IMG/VR virus record: IMGVR_UViG_3300030380_005920
Span: 1 to 26,995 of that record
Source of the DNA: a virus
Strand: one strand, 5' to 3'
DNA length: 26,995 nt
Of the stretch, positions 20,109-26,995 are shown piece after piece (position 1 is the stretch's first letter; each line of letters starts with the position of its first letter). The translations under genes and the position numbers were made by a program. Under the pieces are notes generated by a model. The model had not been told where the DNA came from. It ran no database searches and saw nothing but the letters and a program-made list of their open reading frames with translations.

Positions 20109-20495
20109 ATGGCAATATATAGTGTAACATTTTCAAATCCAATAACTAGAGAGCTACTCTCTGAAGGCGACTCTTTATTTTTTGCTATTAACTCTGATGC
20201 AAATATTACTAATACTGGTAATATATTTTACATAGAAGATACTTTTAGAAGTTTTGGAACAATCTTACAATCTCCACCGCCTTTTCCTCAGCCGTCTGCT
20301 AATCAATTGTTTTTTGATTATAGCGGAGGAGATATAAACGATATTAGTCTTGGTGACTACGTACTAGCTGCTAAAGCAGGTTTAAATGTTTCTGGCATAA
20401 AAGGATATTACGCTAGAGTTTTATTTAAAAACAACTCAAAGCACAAAGCAGAATTATTTGCTATAGGCTCTCAAACACAACCTAGCAGTAAATAA
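20109..20495 (+). CDS. Small conserved-looking virion protein of unknown function
   Basis: 128 residues, no signal peptide or membrane segment. The N-terminus is beta-like (IYSVTFSNPITRELLSEGDS), a central Pro-rich loop reads SPPPFPQP (about 55-62), and the C-terminus carries SGIKGYYARVLFKNNSKHKA followed by ELFAIGSQ and SSK. I recall similar endings (glycine, two tyrosines, then an NNS and AELFA block) in small proteins of marine phage structural clusters, but cannot name a function. It starts 6 bases after the fibre-like gene, suggesting coexpression and perhaps assembly with it. The following 41-base gap is the longest in the 3' half and contains a direct repeat. Confidence 0.6.
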   Translation: MAIYSVTFSNPITRELLSEGDSLFFAINSDANITNTGNIFYIEDTFRSFGTILQSPPPFPQPSANQLFFDYSGGDINDISLGDYVLAAKAGLNVSGIKGYYARVLFKNNSKHKAELFAIGSQTQPSSK

Positions 20496-20501
20496 AACAC
20501 T

Positions 20502-20532
20502 TAAAATGTAACTATAAAAAGATAAAATGTAA
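20502..20532 (+). repeat. Short direct repeat in the gap before the internal-protein module
   Basis: TAAAATGTAA occurs at 20502-20511 and again at 20523-20532, 21 bases apart start to start (about two helical turns). The second copy runs into the ATG at 20537. In AT-rich DNA this could be chance, but it sits at the boundary between the fibre-like genes and the internal-protein genes. Whether it is a binding site or promoter element is unknown. Confidence 0.3.
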
Positions 20533-20536
20533 TAAT

Positions 20537-21748
20537 ATGGCAATTGTAGGTTTAACATCACCGTTTAGAAAAAGGCAAGAAAAAGAAAGTCCAATGAAGG
20601 CTGCTTGGATTCCTATTGTTTTATCTGGCTTAAGCTATTTATCAAGTAAAAAAGCTGCTAAAAAAGCTAATAAGATGCGTAGGCAAGATCAAGCAGCGTT
20701 TGAAGAGCAAAAAGAAGCTTTTGAAGCTTATGAGTTTACTAATCCTTACGAAGGCATTAAAAACCCTTATAGCAATTTAACTAACCAGTTTGCGGGCTTA
20801 GATAATCAATTTAGCGACCTTGATAATCAATACGCTGGATTAGGTAGCCAATTTGCAGGATTACAAAATCAATACGAAGGTTTAGAAAATCAATTTACAG
20901 GTTTGCAAAATAGGTTTGAAGACGCTGAAAACGTTTTTGAAGATTTACGTGTAGACACTCAAGCAGCTGACTTCGCTAGAGAATCAGCGCAACAACAACA
21001 AGCAAATATATTAAGCCAACTTCAAGGCGTTGCTGGATCGAGTGGCGTTGCTAGTTTAGCACAAGCTATAGCGGGCGCTGGTGTTAATCAGGCAAGACAA
21101 GCTTCAATAGATATAGCACAGCAGGAGCGTCAAAACCAAATGATGGCTCGTCAAGAAGAAGCTAGACTACAACAGGCTAGATTAGGTGAAGCAACTAGAA
21201 TTGATCAACTACAAAGACAAGAACAAGGTAGACTAGAGCAACTTAGAGCTGGAGAAGCTGGCAGACTAGCACAACTTCAAGCTCAAGACAGATCTAGAAT
21301 ACAACAGTTGCAAGCTGGTGAAGCTGCAAGACTACAAACACTAGAAGCGCAAGAAGCTTCTAAGTTAGCTCAGCTAACAGCGCAAGAGCAAGCTAAATTA
21401 GATCAATTAATAGCCACTGGTGATTTTCAAGTAGAAATGCTTGATCGTAAAGGCCAACAATATGTTCAGCAAATGGGTTTTAATAGACTTCAAGCTATGT
21501 ATGGTTTATCAGCGTCTAACTTATCAGCGTCTACTCAGTTTGCTAATCAAGCAAGCGCTAACGCTAGTGCTGCGTTTAGCAATTTAATAACAACATCTGT
21601 TAGTTCTGGTCTTTTTGACGGTGGTACTACAGGAGGTTCAGCCCCTGTTACATCAGATAATCCTCTTGTTCCTGTTAGTTACGGAACAGGCGGAGGAACA
21701 GAAATAGATTTAAGCACTAGCACTAACGCTTCTGCGGGCTTATATTAA
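20537..21748 (+). CDS. Repeat-rich internal virion (ejection) protein candidate
   Basis: 403 residues. A hydrophobic N-terminal segment (AAWIPIVLSGLSYLSS, about 22-37) is followed by a basic patch (KKAAKKANKMRR). Residues 69-138 are ten 7-residue repeats of the type NQFAGLD. Residues 210-297 are eight 11-residue repeats of the type RLEQLRAGEAG, predicted to make a long hendecad coiled coil. Between them is an Ala/Gly-rich segment (VAGSSGVASLAQAIAGAG) that could insert into membrane. The C-terminus is Ser/Gly/Thr-rich. Short-tailed phages eject helical, Ala/Gln-rich proteins encoded in this position, so a packaged ejection protein is the best guess; a tail or head structural rod is possible. 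Start 20537 is chosen for its TAATAATATGG context and Ala codon 2; ATG 20594, just before the hydrophobic segment, is an alternative. Confidence 0.65.
   Translation: MAIVGLTSPFRKRQEKESPMKAAWIPIVLSGLSYLSSKKAAKKANKMRRQDQAAFEEQKEAFEAYEFTNPYEGIKNPYSNLTNQFAGLDNQFSDLDNQYAGLGSQFAGLQNQYEGLENQFTGLQNRFEDAENVFEDLRVDTQAADFARESAQQQQANILSQLQGVAGSSGVASLAQAIAGAGVNQARQASIDIAQQERQNQMMARQEEARLQQARLGEATRIDQLQRQEQGRLEQLRAGEAGRLAQLQAQDRSRIQQLQAGEAARLQTLEAQEASKLAQLTAQEQAKLDQLIATGDFQVEMLDRKGQQYVQQMGFNRLQAMYGLSASNLSASTQFANQASANASAAFSNLITTSVSSGLFDGGTTGGSAPVTSDNPLVPVSYGTGGGTEIDLSTSTNASAGLY
20741..20950 (+). repeat. Ten 21-base units encoding heptad repeats
   Basis: The protein reads as ten consecutive heptads (residues 69-138): NPYEGIK, NPYSNLT, NQFAGLD, NQFSDLD, NQYAGLG, SQFAGLQ, NQYEGLE, NQFTGLQ, NRFEDAE, NVFEDLR. 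An aromatic residue is at position 3 of every unit, and Leu or Ile at position 6 of eight or nine. The units are diverged at DNA level, so the array is old and under protein-level selection. Confidence 0.9.
21164..21427 (+). repeat. Eight 33-base units encoding 11-residue (hendecad) repeats
   Basis: Residues 210-297 divide exactly into eight 11-residue units: RLQQARLGEAT, RIDQLQRQEQG, RLEQLRAGEAG, RLAQLQAQDRS, RIQQLQAGEAA, RLQTLEAQEAS, KLAQLTAQEQA, KLDQLIATGDF. Position 1 is Arg or Lys, position 2 Leu or Ile, and position 5 is Leu in all but the first. An 11-residue period predicts a nearly straight or right-handed coiled coil. Confidence 0.9.
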
Positions 21749-21757
21749 TTAGTAATT

Positions 21758-23185
21758 ATGGCAAAGAAAAAAACAACAAATCCAACAAATTTAATGGCTT
21801 ATGACTTTTTGCCAAACATGGGTGCAGGTGACAATACTGGTTTATATGGTCAATTAGCTCAGTTAGGTAGAGTACAAAGAGCTCAACCACTTGTAGATCA
21901 GCGAATAACTCAAGCGTTTCTTGATCCTATAACAACGTACATTAATAAAGCTGAAGAGCAAGTTGTTGCAGGTATGGTAGAGTATAACGATGCTAATCCA
22001 GATTTAGATGACTCTTTATTGTTTGATGGTACAGAAGAAGCTATAGGTAGTCAATTACAAGAAAATAGTAATAGGTTTAAAGAATTAAACAGAAAGCTAG
22101 CTTATATGAGCCCTAATAATAAAAACTACGCTGATACTGTTTCTGAAATAAATAAAATAAATAAAGAAAACGTTAATTTAAGAGATCAAAACAAAAAGCT
22201 TTTAGATATTAGAAACGTAATAAAAGCTAGTGATATTAGCAAAATATCAAAAGGTAATGGCGCTGCTTATGGTAAGATGTATGATCAAATTCAGAAAGGC
22301 GTTAAAGATAACTTTTCCGTAAAAGACGGTAAAATTATTTGGACAAACCCAGACAAAAATGGTAGAGTAAAAGAAATAAGTGTTGATAGTTTAAATGCTG
22401 AAGGACCTGAAATGACAAGTGGGGCTTGGCTTGAGCTTCATACAAAAAACTTAAATACTATTGGTGAATTACCAGCTAATCTTACAGCTAGTAGATCTGC
22501 TTTAGTAGTTAAAAACACTTTTAAATCTCTTGGTAATTCTGGTGTTAAATCTTTACTATGGGATAATCAAAACGGTGGTGAAAAGATGAACTCAGACTTA
22601 ACGTTTTATAATACAGAGCCTTTTATTCAAAAGTATATAAAAAGTGCTAGTAAAGGAGTTACACCAGATATAATTGAAGAGCTTAAAGTTAAAGGCATGA
22701 CTTATACTTTGCCTGGTGCTACAGAGAGTATAGGCGATGCTTTTTCCAAATGGTATCAAGGTAAGCTTAATGAAGAGCCTAAGTTTGGTAAAGGTTTGCC
22801 TTCAAAAGAAGAAAACAATAATCGTACCAATTATTTAATAGACAAGCAATCTGTTCCTATTGCTGATGTTCAGCCAACCGTTGATTTGTTAAATAAAAAT
22901 CTTCAAAATTTAAGCCCACAAACTTCTTGGAACGGTGTTACTTGGCGTATAGTTAATGGTCAGTATCAGTTTTTTAATACAGCCGAAGAAAAATATCAAG
23001 ACATAGATAAAAATGAGTTAACAGCTAGAGGTTTTAAACTTGGCTCTCAACATGGAGTGCAAACAGGAGGTGTTATGGATCTTAATAATGACGGGCAAAT
23101 ATCAAAACAAGAGTTTAATAACTTCATGGGCGGAAGCAGCTCTAACAATCTTATGTTTCCAACTTTACAATTACCAAAATTTTAA
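21758..23185 (+). CDS. Internal virion/cargo candidate with C-terminal EF-hand loop
   Basis: 475 residues, hydrophilic, Lys/Asn/Asp-rich. The N-terminus is basic (MAKKKTTNPTN). Residues about 38-165 are helical with a heptad-like coil (NRKLAYMSPNNKNYADTVSE region, then NKENVNLRDQNKKLLDIRN). The middle is mixed with TWRIVNGQYQF-like strands (about 394-404). Near the end, residues 441-452 read DLNNDGQISKQE, a complete 12-residue EF-hand/dockerin-type calcium loop with Asp441, Asn443, Asp445, Gly446, Ile448 and Glu452. No enzyme motif was found. It is flanked by the repeat protein (9 bases upstream) and the giant zincin-motif gene (3 bases downstream), so it probably belongs to the same packaged or ejected set. 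Its function is not otherwise identifiable. Confidence 0.6.
   Translation: MAKKKTTNPTNLMAYDFLPNMGAGDNTGLYGQLAQLGRVQRAQPLVDQRITQAFLDPITTYINKAEEQVVAGMVEYNDANPDLDDSLLFDGTEEAIGSQLQENSNRFKELNRKLAYMSPNNKNYADTVSEINKINKENVNLRDQNKKLLDIRNVIKASDISKISKGNGAAYGKMYDQIQKGVKDNFSVKDGKIIWTNPDKNGRVKEISVDSLNAEGPEMTSGAWLELHTKNLNTIGELPANLTASRSALVVKNTFKSLGNSGVKSLLWDNQNGGEKMNSDLTFYNTEPFIQKYIKSASKGVTPDIIEELKVKGMTYTLPGATESIGDAFSKWYQGKLNEEPKFGKGLPSKEENNNRTNYLIDKQSVPIADVQPTVDLLNKNLQNLSPQTSWNGVTWRIVNGQYQFFNTAEEKYQDIDKNELTARGFKLGSQHGVQTGGVMDLNNDGQISKQEFNNFMGGSSSNNLMFPTLQLPKF
23078..23113 (+). other. EF-hand-type calcium-binding loop
   Basis: Twelve codons encode DLNNDGQISKQE with acidic or amide ligands at positions 1, 3, 5 and 12, Gly at 6 and Ile at 8, matching the canonical loop exactly. 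Phe at +2 after the final Glu also fits the exiting helix. Only one loop is visible, where EF-hands usually pair, so it may act as a single dockerin-like site or through a partner. Confidence 0.75.
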
Positions 23186-23188
23186 AAT

Positions 23189-26100
23189 ATGTTTGAATTA
23201 AATGGTCAACCAGTTACTCTTGAGCAGCTTCAAAGTGACGCAGCTCAATACAACGCTACGTTTGAAGAGTATTTAGAAGAAATGAAAAAAAATGGTCTTG
23301 TGGAAAAGACAAACGGCTCTCAGATAGAGGATGCGACTGCGGAGTCAAACGTTACGGCATCCGAGCCGGTAGATTTTTTATCGGAGTTACAGCCAGCTGC
23401 TCAAAGTAGTACGGCTGTAGTACCTTCTATAGGTCAAAGCGAGCTAAATAAATTCTATAGCACCGCTCCAACTTCACCTGTTGTAGCTTACAGCAAAACT
23501 GAAAATGATAAAAACATAGCGGAACTTAATTTAAAAAAAATTGTTCCTGAAAAAATACAACAAACAACAGGTATTAGTAGCTTTGGAGTTCCTACTACTA
23601 CACTAGTTGATAAACAATTAAGCGATGAAGATTTAAAATATAATGAAAAAATTCAAGAGGAAATAGACGCCCAAGTAAGCTCTAGCTTAGAAAAGTTAGA
23701 AGCCTGGGCAGAGCATGATTTTTTTACTAAAAAAGAGTATTTAAGAGGAATAACAAACACAAAAACTTTAACTGCTTACGAAGAATTAGAAGATCCAGAC
23801 AAACAAGATTTAAAGGAAGTATTTAAAAGAAATATATTATCGGCTGGTGGATTTGGAAAAAGTTATTTTCCAGGTTTAAATGAAACTCATATTGACAAGG
23901 TTTTTGAAGACGCGTTTGCTAATGCAAAAAATTCAGAAAAAGGTGAAGAGCAAAGAAAAGATATAGATATAGCTATTGACGAAGGAAATAAAAAAGGCAT
24001 TTCTATAGATCAAAACATTGATAGCTTAAACTCTGTTATGAAAAGCACTTATGGCAAAAAGCCTGAGCAAGAGCTAGCCTTATTACTAGACTTTGAAGAA
24101 AAAATAGCTACAGGTAAAATAGATGGATTTTTTCCAGAAGATAAAAAAAATAGAAAAGAAGAGCTTATAAATCAATTATTTTATAAAGACGAATTAAAGA
24201 CAGTATTTGATCCTATTACTAAAGAAACAAGACTTGTTGCTACAGGCAAAAGAATACCAAAAGACGGTGGTTACAAAGTGTTTCACGACTTTAATACTGG
24301 TCAAAATATTCAAAATCCTACAGAAAGAAAAGCACCTACAGGTACAGTTGATGTAACTAGCGCTTTTGAAATGTACATGTCTAAATATAAGAATACGTCT
24401 AGAGGTGATTTAGCTAAATTCAACGATAGACTACTTTTAGAAGAGTCTGGATATAATATTGAAGGCGACCAGATAGAATCAGTAGCTATAAATGATAAGA
24501 CTCTTAGAGGTCTTCTATCTGAATATAAAAGACCTAATAGCGCTATATTTGATGTTCCAATAAAAAAATTGACAGAGCTTGGTTATATAGCTAATAAATG
24601 GGATTTTTGGAGTAGAGATATATTTGCGCCAGGTGCTGACTTTGATGAAATAAAACCAATCAGCTATGAAAACAAGCCTTATTCTAACGAGCAAGAGTTT
24701 ATAGAATATTTAGAAGTTAGAAATCAACAAGGTCTAGATATAGCTGCTAAAAAGCATGCTTTATGGCAAACGTATCACTTAAATAGAGATGTTACATCTA
24801 TAGCTAAAACAAGAACAGGTCAAGTGTTAGGTGCTTTTTCAGAAACAGTGTTTGGTCCTGAAATAACTGAAGAGCAGTTTGGCTTTACAAACCAAAAAAC
24901 AGTAGATGTATTTGCTCAGGAAATAGCACCCGCATCAGGACTAGAGTTAAGTGAAGATCAAAAAAGACATACAGAAAGAACGCTAGGCGATCAAATGTAC
25001 GAAAACGTAGGATCTCTTGGAGGTTTAATGGTTTATTTAACACCTATGGGTAGAACTTTAAAACCAGCTACTACAGCTATTGCTAGACTGAACGCTCCTA
25101 GGTACTTTATGAAAGGCAAACAAATATCATCAGGTAATCTTATTAAATTTGCTAGTAAAAATCGAACATCAGTAGAGAACTTAGTTAAAGCTGGCACAGT
25201 TGTTAAAAAGCCCGCTAGTGTTTGGAATAAAGGAAAGGCTCTTGCTTTAGGCGCTACGCTTGAAGAGTTTAAAATGAAAGAAGGGCTTGGCGCTCTTACT
25301 GACGGTAGACTAGAGTTTGAAAGAGGCGTTGGCGCTGGTTTTTATCTTGGTGGTCAGCTTTTACCTTATTCTTTTAAAAACGCGACTAAATACAATCCGC
25401 TCAACTCATTTTTAGAAAAAGCATTTAAAAACGCGCCTGCTTTTGTTATTGCTGCAGAAGCCGGTGAAGCTATAAATGCTGTTGTTGATGATTTACAAGG
25501 TAGAGAAGAGTTTCAAACTTTTGTTAAAAAACATTGGGGTGATTACGATAAAAATGTTGAAAGAACTATACTCCATTTAATGACAGGTTTTGGCTTAGGT
25601 TTTACTCATACAAAGAGATTTGACTTTAAAAGATTTAGTGGTATTAAAAACTTTAAAGATCAAGCTATAAAAAAAGTAATAGAAAAACAAGACGTATTAG
25701 AAAATCAAGCTAAAAAAGAAGGTGTAGATATTACAAACGAAAAAGCTTATGGAGAGTGGTTAGACGGGCAAATGGCAGTTGGCAATAAAGACTTGCAAAA
25801 AATGGAAAGATACCACCAAGACTTTTTAGAAGCTGATGCTTATTTAGAGAAAATAAACGAAGTAGAAGAGTGGACAGATCCAGCAAAAGCTAAAAAACAC
25901 TATGAAGAGCACTACAAAGGTTTAAAAGATTTATATAAATCTAGAGGTAAAGAGCTTATTGTTGAAGTAACAAACCAACCTTTATATCAAGAGTTTTTTG
26001 ATACTAGAGGTAATTTACAAAGACAAGAAGTTAGCGCTTTGTTTACAAGATTATCTGATATTAAAGATGGTACTACTACAAAAAATCAAGCTAAAATACA

Positions 26101-26995
26101 GATAAATACATCAAAGTCTAAAGGTAAGCAAACAGCGTCTCACGAAGGGTTACATGCTTATATGGATTTAATGTTTGACGGTAAACCTGCTTTAAAGCAA
26201 AACTTTGCAAATCAATTAATAAGCGTTTTGTCTGAAGTAAATCTTGGAACTGGCATAGACTTATACTCAGAAATATTAAAAGACCCTGCTCTTGCTGGTA
26301 AAAAACAACTGCAGTTAGAAGAACTTATGACTTACACTGCTGAGTTTTTAGCAAGAAAAGAAAACAGATATTTAATACAAGAAGGTGTAGTTGGTAAAGT
26401 AGCAGACTTTTTTAATAACTTTTCTAAATCTGTTACAGGCAAACCAGCCGATGCATTTACTCATCAAGATATTATAAATATATTAGGTAGATACTCTGCT
26501 AAAGGTGATTATTCTAAATTAAAAGGTTTAGATAGATATGTTGAGATCGGTGAAAACATAGAAGGTCAAATGGCTAGAAGACCTATTGAAACTATGAAGG
26601 ATCAAACTAAAAGGCTTGAAGCTTCAAAAAAACAAATAATACAAAAGATAACAGATCTTAATATAGCTAAGCTTGAGAATTATAAAAGTGAAATTGCAGA
26701 CTTACAAAAAGAACTACGAGAAAACATTAATCCTGAGCTAAATAAAATTAATGACATTATCAAGAAAGGAGATCCTAGAGATTTATTAAATCAATTTTTA
26801 AGTCAAAAAGGTAGTGATGGTAATTTTAAAAATAAATATACTAAAGAAGAAATAAAAGAAGGCGGTATAGGTAGAAAAGACTTTAACGAAACAGCCAAGC
26901 TAATTCTTGAAAGTGATTTTGTAAAAAACATGATAACTACTAGCACTGGTGAGTTACGTTTTAAAAAAGGTGGCTCTAACGAGCAAATGTTCTAT
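23189..26995 (+). CDS. Giant internal virion protein with HExxH zincin motif, 3'-truncated
   Basis: The frame is open from ATG 23189 to the window end with no stop: 1269 residues, gene unfinished. The N-terminus (FELNGQPVTLEQL ... FEEYLEEMKKNGLVEK) resembles a small motif seen at the start of large phage internal proteins. Residues about 40-110 are low complexity. From 600 to 810 there are short Gly-rich hydrophobic segments (GSLGGLMVYL, GVGAGFYLGGQLL, HLMTGFGLGF) that might touch membrane. Residues 985-989 are HEGLH, a zinc metallopeptidase signature; a possible third ligand lies in EELMTYTAEFL (Glu1044, Glu1045 or Glu1052). Residues about 1128-1192 form a charged coiled coil. Large multidomain proteins with zincin domains are known among phage polyvalent and ejected proteins. 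Ejection with DNA and peptidase activity are inferred; packaging-only cargo is an alternative. Confidence 0.7.
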   Translation, partial: MFELNGQPVTLEQLQSDAAQYNATFEEYLEEMKKNGLVEKTNGSQIEDATAESNVTASEPVDFLSELQPAAQSSTAVVPSIGQSELNKFYSTAPTSPVVAYSKTENDKNIAELNLKKIVPEKIQQTTGISSFGVPTTTLVDKQLSDEDLKYNEKIQEEIDAQVSSSLEKLEAWAEHDFFTKKEYLRGITNTKTLTAYEELEDPDKQDLKEVFKRNILSAGGFGKSYFPGLNETHIDKVFEDAFANAKNSEKGEEQRKDIDIAIDEGNKKGISIDQNIDSLNSVMKSTYGKKPEQELALLLDFEEKIATGKIDGFFPEDKKNRKEELINQLFYKDELKTVFDPITKETRLVATGKRIPKDGGYKVFHDFNTGQNIQNPTERKAPTGTVDVTSAFEMYMSKYKNTSRGDLAKFNDRLLLEESGYNIEGDQIESVAINDKTLRGLLSEYKRPNSAIFDVPIKKLTELGYIANKWDFWSRDIFAPGADFDEIKPISYENKPYSNEQEFIEYLEVRNQQGLDIAAKKHALWQTYHLNRDVTSIAKTRTGQVLGAFSETVFGPEITEEQFGFTNQKTVDVFAQEIAPASGLELSEDQKRHTERTLGDQMYENVGSLGGLMVYLTPMGRTLKPATTAIARLNAPRYFMKGKQISSGNLIKFASKNRTSVENLVKAGTVVKKPASVWNKGKALALGATLEEFKMKEGLGALTDGRLEFERGVGAGFYLGGQLLPYSFKNATKYNPLNSFLEKAFKNAPAFVIAAEAGEAINAVVDDLQGREEFQTFVKKHWGDYDKNVERTILHLMTGFGLGFTHTKRFDFKRFSGIKNFKDQAIKKVIEKQDVLENQAKKEGVDITNEKAYGEWLDGQMAVGNKDLQKMERYHQDFLEADAYLEKINEVEEWTDPAKAKKHYEEHYKGLKDLYKSRGKELIVEVTNQPLYQEFFDTRGNLQRQEVSALFTRLSDIKDGTTTKNQAKIQINTSKSKGKQTASHEGLHAYMDLMFDGKPALKQNFANQLISVLSEVNLGTGIDLYSEILKDPALAGKKQLQLEELMTYTAEFLARKENRYLIQEGVVGKVADFFNNFSKSVTGKPADAFTHQDIINILGRYSAKGDYSKLKGLDRYVEIGENIEGQMARRPIETMKDQTKRLEASKKQIIQKITDLNIAKLENYKSEIADLQKELRENINPELNKINDIIKKGDPRDLLNQFLSQKGSDGNFKNKYTKEEIKEGGIGRKDFNETAKLILESDFVKNMITTSTGELRFKKGGSNEQMFY
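26141..26155 (+). other. HExxH zinc-peptidase signature
   Basis: Codons in the reading frame of the giant protein encode HEGLH (residues 985-989), followed by AYMD. It is preceded by a beta-strand-like AKIQINTS and a Lys-rich loop, and followed 55-63 residues later by a Glu-containing helix (EELMTYTAEF). That layout matches gluzincin-type metallopeptidases, in which the two His and a downstream Glu bind zinc and the motif Glu is catalytic. Confidence 0.65.

Follow-up and report, generated by a model that had tools for sequence, protein, structure and literature searches.

Introduction

Zincins are the commonest domain in the polyvalent proteins of phages and plasmids, where Iyer, Burroughs and Aravind described 12 MPTase clades in 2017 (PMC5512222). 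Self-processing, maturation and attack on host proteins have been discussed as roles of these polyvalent zincins (PMC5512222). In case of phage N4, the giant vRNAP possesses a C1 domain with an HExxH motif and is itself ejected (PMC12633501, PMC10925440). The DEV equivalent of N4 vRNAP is likewise an ejection protein; its gene shares an operon with those of two smaller ejection proteins, an arrangement that the authors compared to T7 gp14-15-16 (PMC10925440).

Here, we analyzed a complete IMG/VR record of 26,995 bases (the window), which covers a tailed-phage virion block. A preliminary description of this DNA had proposed a metallopeptidase motif inside a giant and probably ejected protein encoded at the window end. 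Based on synteny, family profiles and structure prediction, we consider it likely that this protein contains a gluzincin-type zinc peptidase domain which is delivered by ejection.

Results and Discussion

Genomic context of g14

All genes of the virion block are located on the + strand in the order TerL, portal, scaffold-like protein, MCP, four further genes (one of them encoding a 2953-aa protein) and g10 to g14. Relatives of the portal and MCP are found in Flavobacterium elemo phages, Cellulophaga phages phi38:1 and phi13:2, Maribacter phage Panino and isolate ctfjg026; the host is therefore probably a flavobacterium. Since the window represents the whole IMG/VR record, the 3' part of g14 is missing; 18 complete relatives have lengths of 2189-2783 aa. 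The coordinates of g14, its domain and its two upstream neighbors are collected in Table 1.

Table 1. Positions of g12 to g14 and of the predicted functional elements of g14 in the window.
Feature	Position	Strand	Basis or remark
g12, Ala/Gln-rich, first upstream internal-protein candidate	20537..21748	+	A1 profile match to phi13:2 gp124
g13, second upstream internal-protein candidate	21758..23185	+	syntenic in relatives; position of phi38:1 gp100
g14 (P0001), giant protein	23189..26995	+	1269 aa visible, no stop before contig end
N-terminal module of ~41 residues (MFELNGQ...YLEEMKKNGLVEK)	23189..23311	+	BLAST to L126, L127, L170
Predicted zincin-type metallopeptidase domain, P0001 residues 913-1105	25925..26503	+	leave-window-out HMM and AF2 model
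Strand, KIQIN region, residues 968-973, directly before HExxH helix	26090..26107	+	AF2 model; 'IxIN' conserved
HEGLH, residues 985-989; predicted zinc ligands H985/H989, predicted general base E986	26141..26155	+	invariant in 44/44 rows
E1045, predicted third zinc ligand, 60 residues past H985 (family range 53-87)	26321..26323	+	invariant in 44/44 rows
E1052, acidic, two turns further along the E1045 helix	26342..26344	+	D or E in 42/44 rows

The large g14 adjoins two smaller candidate ejection-protein genes, g12 and g13. This is in good agreement with the preliminary description, which had seen two internal-protein candidates ahead of the giant. The match of g12 to gp124, annotated 'virion structural protein', has an E of 8.2e-6, and gp100, the positional equivalent of g13, is annotated 'structural protein'. 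Sequence comparison of g12 and g13 with solved structures gave no match. In their annotation, the syntenic giants of the elemo phages and phi38:1 are likewise termed 'structural protein', and gp101 of phi38:1 has a match among the PHROGs for virion structural proteins. Further, the window order of portal, scaffold, MCP, other genes, two smaller proteins and giant resembles that of N4, where portal and MCP are followed by gp52, gp51 and gp50, the giant vRNAP being last. Because of this N4/DEV-like gene order and the virion annotation of related giants, delivery of the protein with the DNA is likely, which indirectly supports the ejection proposed in the preliminary description. The g12 versions of the window, G001, G003 and G011 additionally contain a tract of 7-residue repeats (xNQFxGLx; ~20770-20960 in the window) that is absent from G006/G009/G010-type proteins. 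Near the C-terminus of g13, residues 440-457 (23075-23128) resemble an EF-hand calcium loop (DLNNDGQISKQEF) at a sub-threshold level (Pfam E=3e-5).

One HExxH motif in every syntenic giant

HEGLH, which had been reported at residues 985-989 of the window-end ORF, was confirmed at the codon level, and no second HExxH was present among the window ORFs listed, as expected from the claim that it is the only peptidase-like motif in the window. The motif falls within the region 25900-26400 assigned to it previously, with the domain reaching slightly past that end. Taken alone, HExxH in P0001 is only mildly unusual because 1.8% of P0001 shuffles contain one, so that the single-sequence evidence is weak and would be compatible with a motif that arose by chance in a protein rich in helices and charged residues.

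Family data were obtained via two routes. First, 80 loci were collected via the portal and their longer contigs inspected at the g14 position, where a giant ORF with HExxH was found wherever more than ~800 residues were covered. Second, the g12 alignment A1 was used to fetch 75 loci, which partly overlap the portal set and include as much as 10 kb of downstream sequence each. The largest + strand ORF downstream of g12 was defined as the giant regardless of motif, yielding ORFs of more than 1,000 aa in 54 of the 75 loci. All 54 contain exactly one HExxH. For shuffled giants, HExxH is expected in a mean of 0.62 out of 56 (maximum 3), and the remaining ORFs of the giant-bearing loci hold 7 HExxH in 283,822 aa. 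The giants form 43 clusters at 90% and 29 clusters at 50% domain identity. The frequency of HExxH across syntenic giants is thus far beyond chance.

Relatives covering the zincin domain were reached only by synteny through g12. When full P0001 served as the query, no relative covering the domain was returned by tblastn against cultured phages, by a peptide-pattern scan of viral contigs or by a whole-record search, and Pfam and PHROGs likewise gave no convincing relative of the protein. A profile built from the C-terminal zone that is conserved in the giants (+850 to +1750) matched no cultured relative. Because of its high diversity, the family alignment A4 did not lend itself to pattern scanning of genome or viral collections.

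The domain and its predicted active site are conserved

Alignment A3 comprises 44 rows with 12-21% identity to the window and has only four invariant columns, namely His985, Glu986, His989 and Glu1045. Both histidines, the motif glutamate and the downstream glutamate are therefore kept in 44/44 aligned homologues, a pattern that matches the active site foreseen in the preliminary description. An HMM built without the window matches P0001 in the domain region with E=3.2e-12 (42.4 bits) and the elemo phage giant with E=5.3e-8. Nei-Gojobori dN/dS values of the domain range from 0.03 to 0.24 in 9 out of 10 pairs and reach 0.40 in one, indicating that the domain is under strong purifying selection in most close pairs. 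At the sequence level, these data support a distinct domain with invariant residues that is universally present at this locus in the clade. Given the 54/54 conservation, the four invariant residues, the HMM match and the purifying selection, the family data refute a chance motif, whose probability we regard as negligible.

Predicted structure points to a gluzincin-type fold

AlphaFold2 (AF2) models were analyzed for the window domain (pLDDT 72.3 overall, ~85 in the HExxH and Glu helices) and for relative L198 (pLDDT 89.7, pTM 0.82). In both, strands are followed by the HExxH helix, a further helix and the Glu helix. In the P0001 model, H985 and H989 are located together on helix 979-996, preceded by a strand pair, while E1044/E1045 (59/60 residues downstream of H985) are part of the later helix 1039-1055, which fits the Glu-rich helix that had been noticed 55-63 residues past the motif. 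The KIQIN strand corresponds to strand 104-109 of A3 row 1 in the AF2 model. Hence, an HExxH helix and an invariant glutamate on a later helix, the two elements of the proposed gluzincin layout, are both found in sequence and model.

Searches of Pfam, NCBIfam, PHROG and PDB sequences yielded no family matching the domain above cut-off, and none of the Pfam zincin/MPTase models exceeded its gathering score in the 44 family members. Sub-threshold, scattered library matches of different members include several zincins (M35, M78, M90 and Zincin_1), and a PDB profile search with the family listed snapalysin at 0.057. Foldseek against the PDB gave only helical noise for the 271-residue window model and nothing significant for the cleaner L198 model (best E>1), with anthrax lethal factor and Certhrax appearing only at E 3-9. 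Against a viral structure library, Foldseek probabilities of up to 1.00 (E 0.003) were observed, mostly to large phage proteins of which several are annotated polyvalent; an elemoC structural protein was matched with a probability of 0.89. The structure prediction and fold search suggested earlier as checks thus recovered the predicted layout and no significant PDB match, and the assignment to a zincin fold therefore rests on the motif, its invariance and the layout of the models.

The lack of a significant PDB fold match would also be in line with a metal site of another kind, either structural zinc or a different enzyme such as an alpha-ketoglutarate-dependent hydroxylase. HExxH does occur in non-peptidases, and the N4 structure paper notes radical-SAM-linked enzymes (PMC12633501). 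However, the invariant glutamate on the later helix and the strand-helix order match gluzincins, and the sub-threshold similarities mentioned above, snapalysin included, also point to zincins, making a non-peptidase site improbable. Sequence and model thus support a gluzincin-type zincin of MEROPS clan MA(E) and a candidate peptidase.

Divergence of the giants and exchange of cassettes

Compared with G011 (L127), the nearest giant-bearing relative, identity is 86-98% for g7-g11 and falls to 77% for g12, 42% for g13 and 23% for g14. BLAST similarity between the two g14 proteins is limited to the first ~90 residues. Despite this divergence, HExxH is located at residue 985 in the window giant and 986 in that of G011. 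These values suggest that the end of the ejection block (20109-26995) was replaced or has rapidly diverged relative to G011, with g14 as the most divergent gene of its neighborhood and its predicted active site kept. As the peptidase domain is universal in the clade and its carrier protein nearly unconstrained, the active site is evidently selected.

The syntenic giants of the more distant phages phi38:1, phi13:2 and Panino lack the whole zincin domain. The domain is therefore not needed for ejection as such, and it appears to have been gained or lost as a cassette. In the syntenic giant of Panino (L003 13229-18718, - strand), residues 381-599 match PHROG 4752 ('tRNA methyltransferase'), which suggests that enzymatic cassettes are exchanged in the giant gene. 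Sequence modules are also apparent at the N-termini. The module of g14 shows 37-47% BLAST identity over 47-91 aa to the three giants listed in Table 1 and is common to some giants, with other module types standing there in others. Across L126-L200, the N-termini draw on a few exchangeable modules (MFELNG..YLE.MK..GLVEK; MNNLQKLYQ..; YxLSDGREANV..; ELYQALYDQGKYTKTFEEF), some of which are tandemly duplicated (L160, L183 and ctfjg026); the modules could possibly serve as packaging or docking tags. A constant hydrophobic stretch ahead of the zincin was considered as well and rejected: it lies 300-500 aa upstream in many relatives, but no 19-aa peak of at least 1.4 occurs in the window protein.

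Proposed role and likely substrates

In the mechanism we favor, g14 would be the giant third member of the ejection set g12-g13-g14 and take the place of T7 gp16 or N4 vRNAP. Judging from gene order and the annotation of relatives, the giant would be packaged into the head and then ejected along with the DNA. Its domain, with H985, H989 and E1045 as ligands and E986 as base, may then cleave a peptide bond at an early stage of infection. As its substrate, we consider the giant itself or its ejectosome partners most likely, cleaved in cis, and such a cut could free the large C-terminal part once it has passed through the envelope. We lean slightly towards cleavage in cis because the zincin is located in the middle of the protein, ahead of a large C-terminal part, and regard it as a tentative assignment that is quite possible yet short of probable.

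A host envelope or defense protein would be a close second as substrate, the closeness resulting from the divergence pattern of the giant. Here, the ejected zincin would act as an effector that cuts a host envelope, secretion or defense protein instead of the giant, a role that falls among those named by Iyer et al. (PMC5512222). Between otherwise close phages, no other gene comes near the giant in divergence, while the giant's active site is fixed, as expected if it tracks a changing host target. However, the whole giant diverges and not the zincin alone, with the zincin less diverged than its flank in several close pairs, and no target can be identified from sequence. We consider such an effector possible, although doubtful.

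Alternatively, the giant or its neighbors might be trimmed inside the procapsid before packaging. This has been proposed for P1 DdrB, which is processed pre-packaging and has a C-terminal MPTase (PMC5512222). Against this stands N4 vRNAP, which has a corresponding gene position and a similar domain and is packaged unprocessed (PMC5512222), its deposited chains measuring 3500 aa. As N4 vRNAP is packaged whole, a maturation protease is disfavored for g14 and we regard it as unlikely. Cleavage in cis after ejection remains our preferred, if tentative, reading.

Among the virion-carried polyvalent zincins in the literature examined, none has a demonstrated substrate. The present family extends to the elemo phages, which can be cultured on Flavobacterium sp. 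BAL314, so that the substrate question is testable. A bolder and not very likely proposal is that this unrecognized zincin family constitutes the fixed catalytic core of hypervariable, wholesale-swapped ejection giants which cleave host proteins at entry in a widespread marine lineage of Bacteroidota phages. If host cleavage at entry were true, the giant would represent a host-adapted, protease-bearing machine for counter-defense or envelope opening that works without RNA polymerase or lysozyme. Further, a family profile would let annotators recognize a domain missed by current libraries.

Comparison with known systems

Like the polyvalent MPTases described in 2017, the window domain is predicted to combine a short sheet, an HExxH helix and a downstream Glu helix; it forms part of a very large protein of the late region, for which an autoprocessing or effector role is proposed. 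In contrast to them, it matches no Pfam, NCBIfam or PHROG model, and the giants scanned contain hardly any other recognizable enzymatic domain; when ten syntenic giants were scanned with Pfam, sub-threshold LPD14 (L163) and DUF3293 (elemo) were the only matches to stand out.

In case of N4 gp50 (C1 in chains 9pnr and 11gp), the giant is likewise the last gene of the virion/ejection cluster. C1 has an 'IYL...HELVHA' layout, with HExxH followed by a conserved NEF-type glutamate, as in g14. An hhalign comparison of family A4 with the N4 C1 profile A5 aligned the HExxH and Glu columns, although the match was weak (E=0.0021, probability 13%). The g14 zincin lies mid-protein whereas C1 sits after the RNAP. 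A hidden N4-type RNA polymerase in g14 was rejected, as the N4 RNAP domain, used as phmmer query on the giants, gave a best E of 0.087.

Among isolates, the elemo phages (MT497074) encode a syntenic 3667-aa giant with HEIFH and ctfjg026 (MW202828) a syntenic 3859-aa giant with two HEFGH, both otherwise unrelated in sequence. In the latter (L002 741-12320, - strand), HExxH occurs at 1615 and 2500; the profile match is modest for 2500 (2.4e-5 in a ten-protein search) and marginal for 1615 (E 0.018).

T7 gp14-gp15-gp16 and DEV gp73-gp72-gp71 share with g12-g13-g14 the arrangement of two smaller genes and a giant, a gene set of short-tailed phages. T7 gp16 carries a transglycosylase, an enzyme domain different from the zincin in g14. 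Zincins in phage polyvalent and ejection proteins are already known from the work of Iyer and colleagues (PMC5512222) and from domain C1 of N4 vRNAP. Rather than a new kind of system, the giants described here thus add a new, mostly uncultured marine family to the virion and polyvalent zincins.
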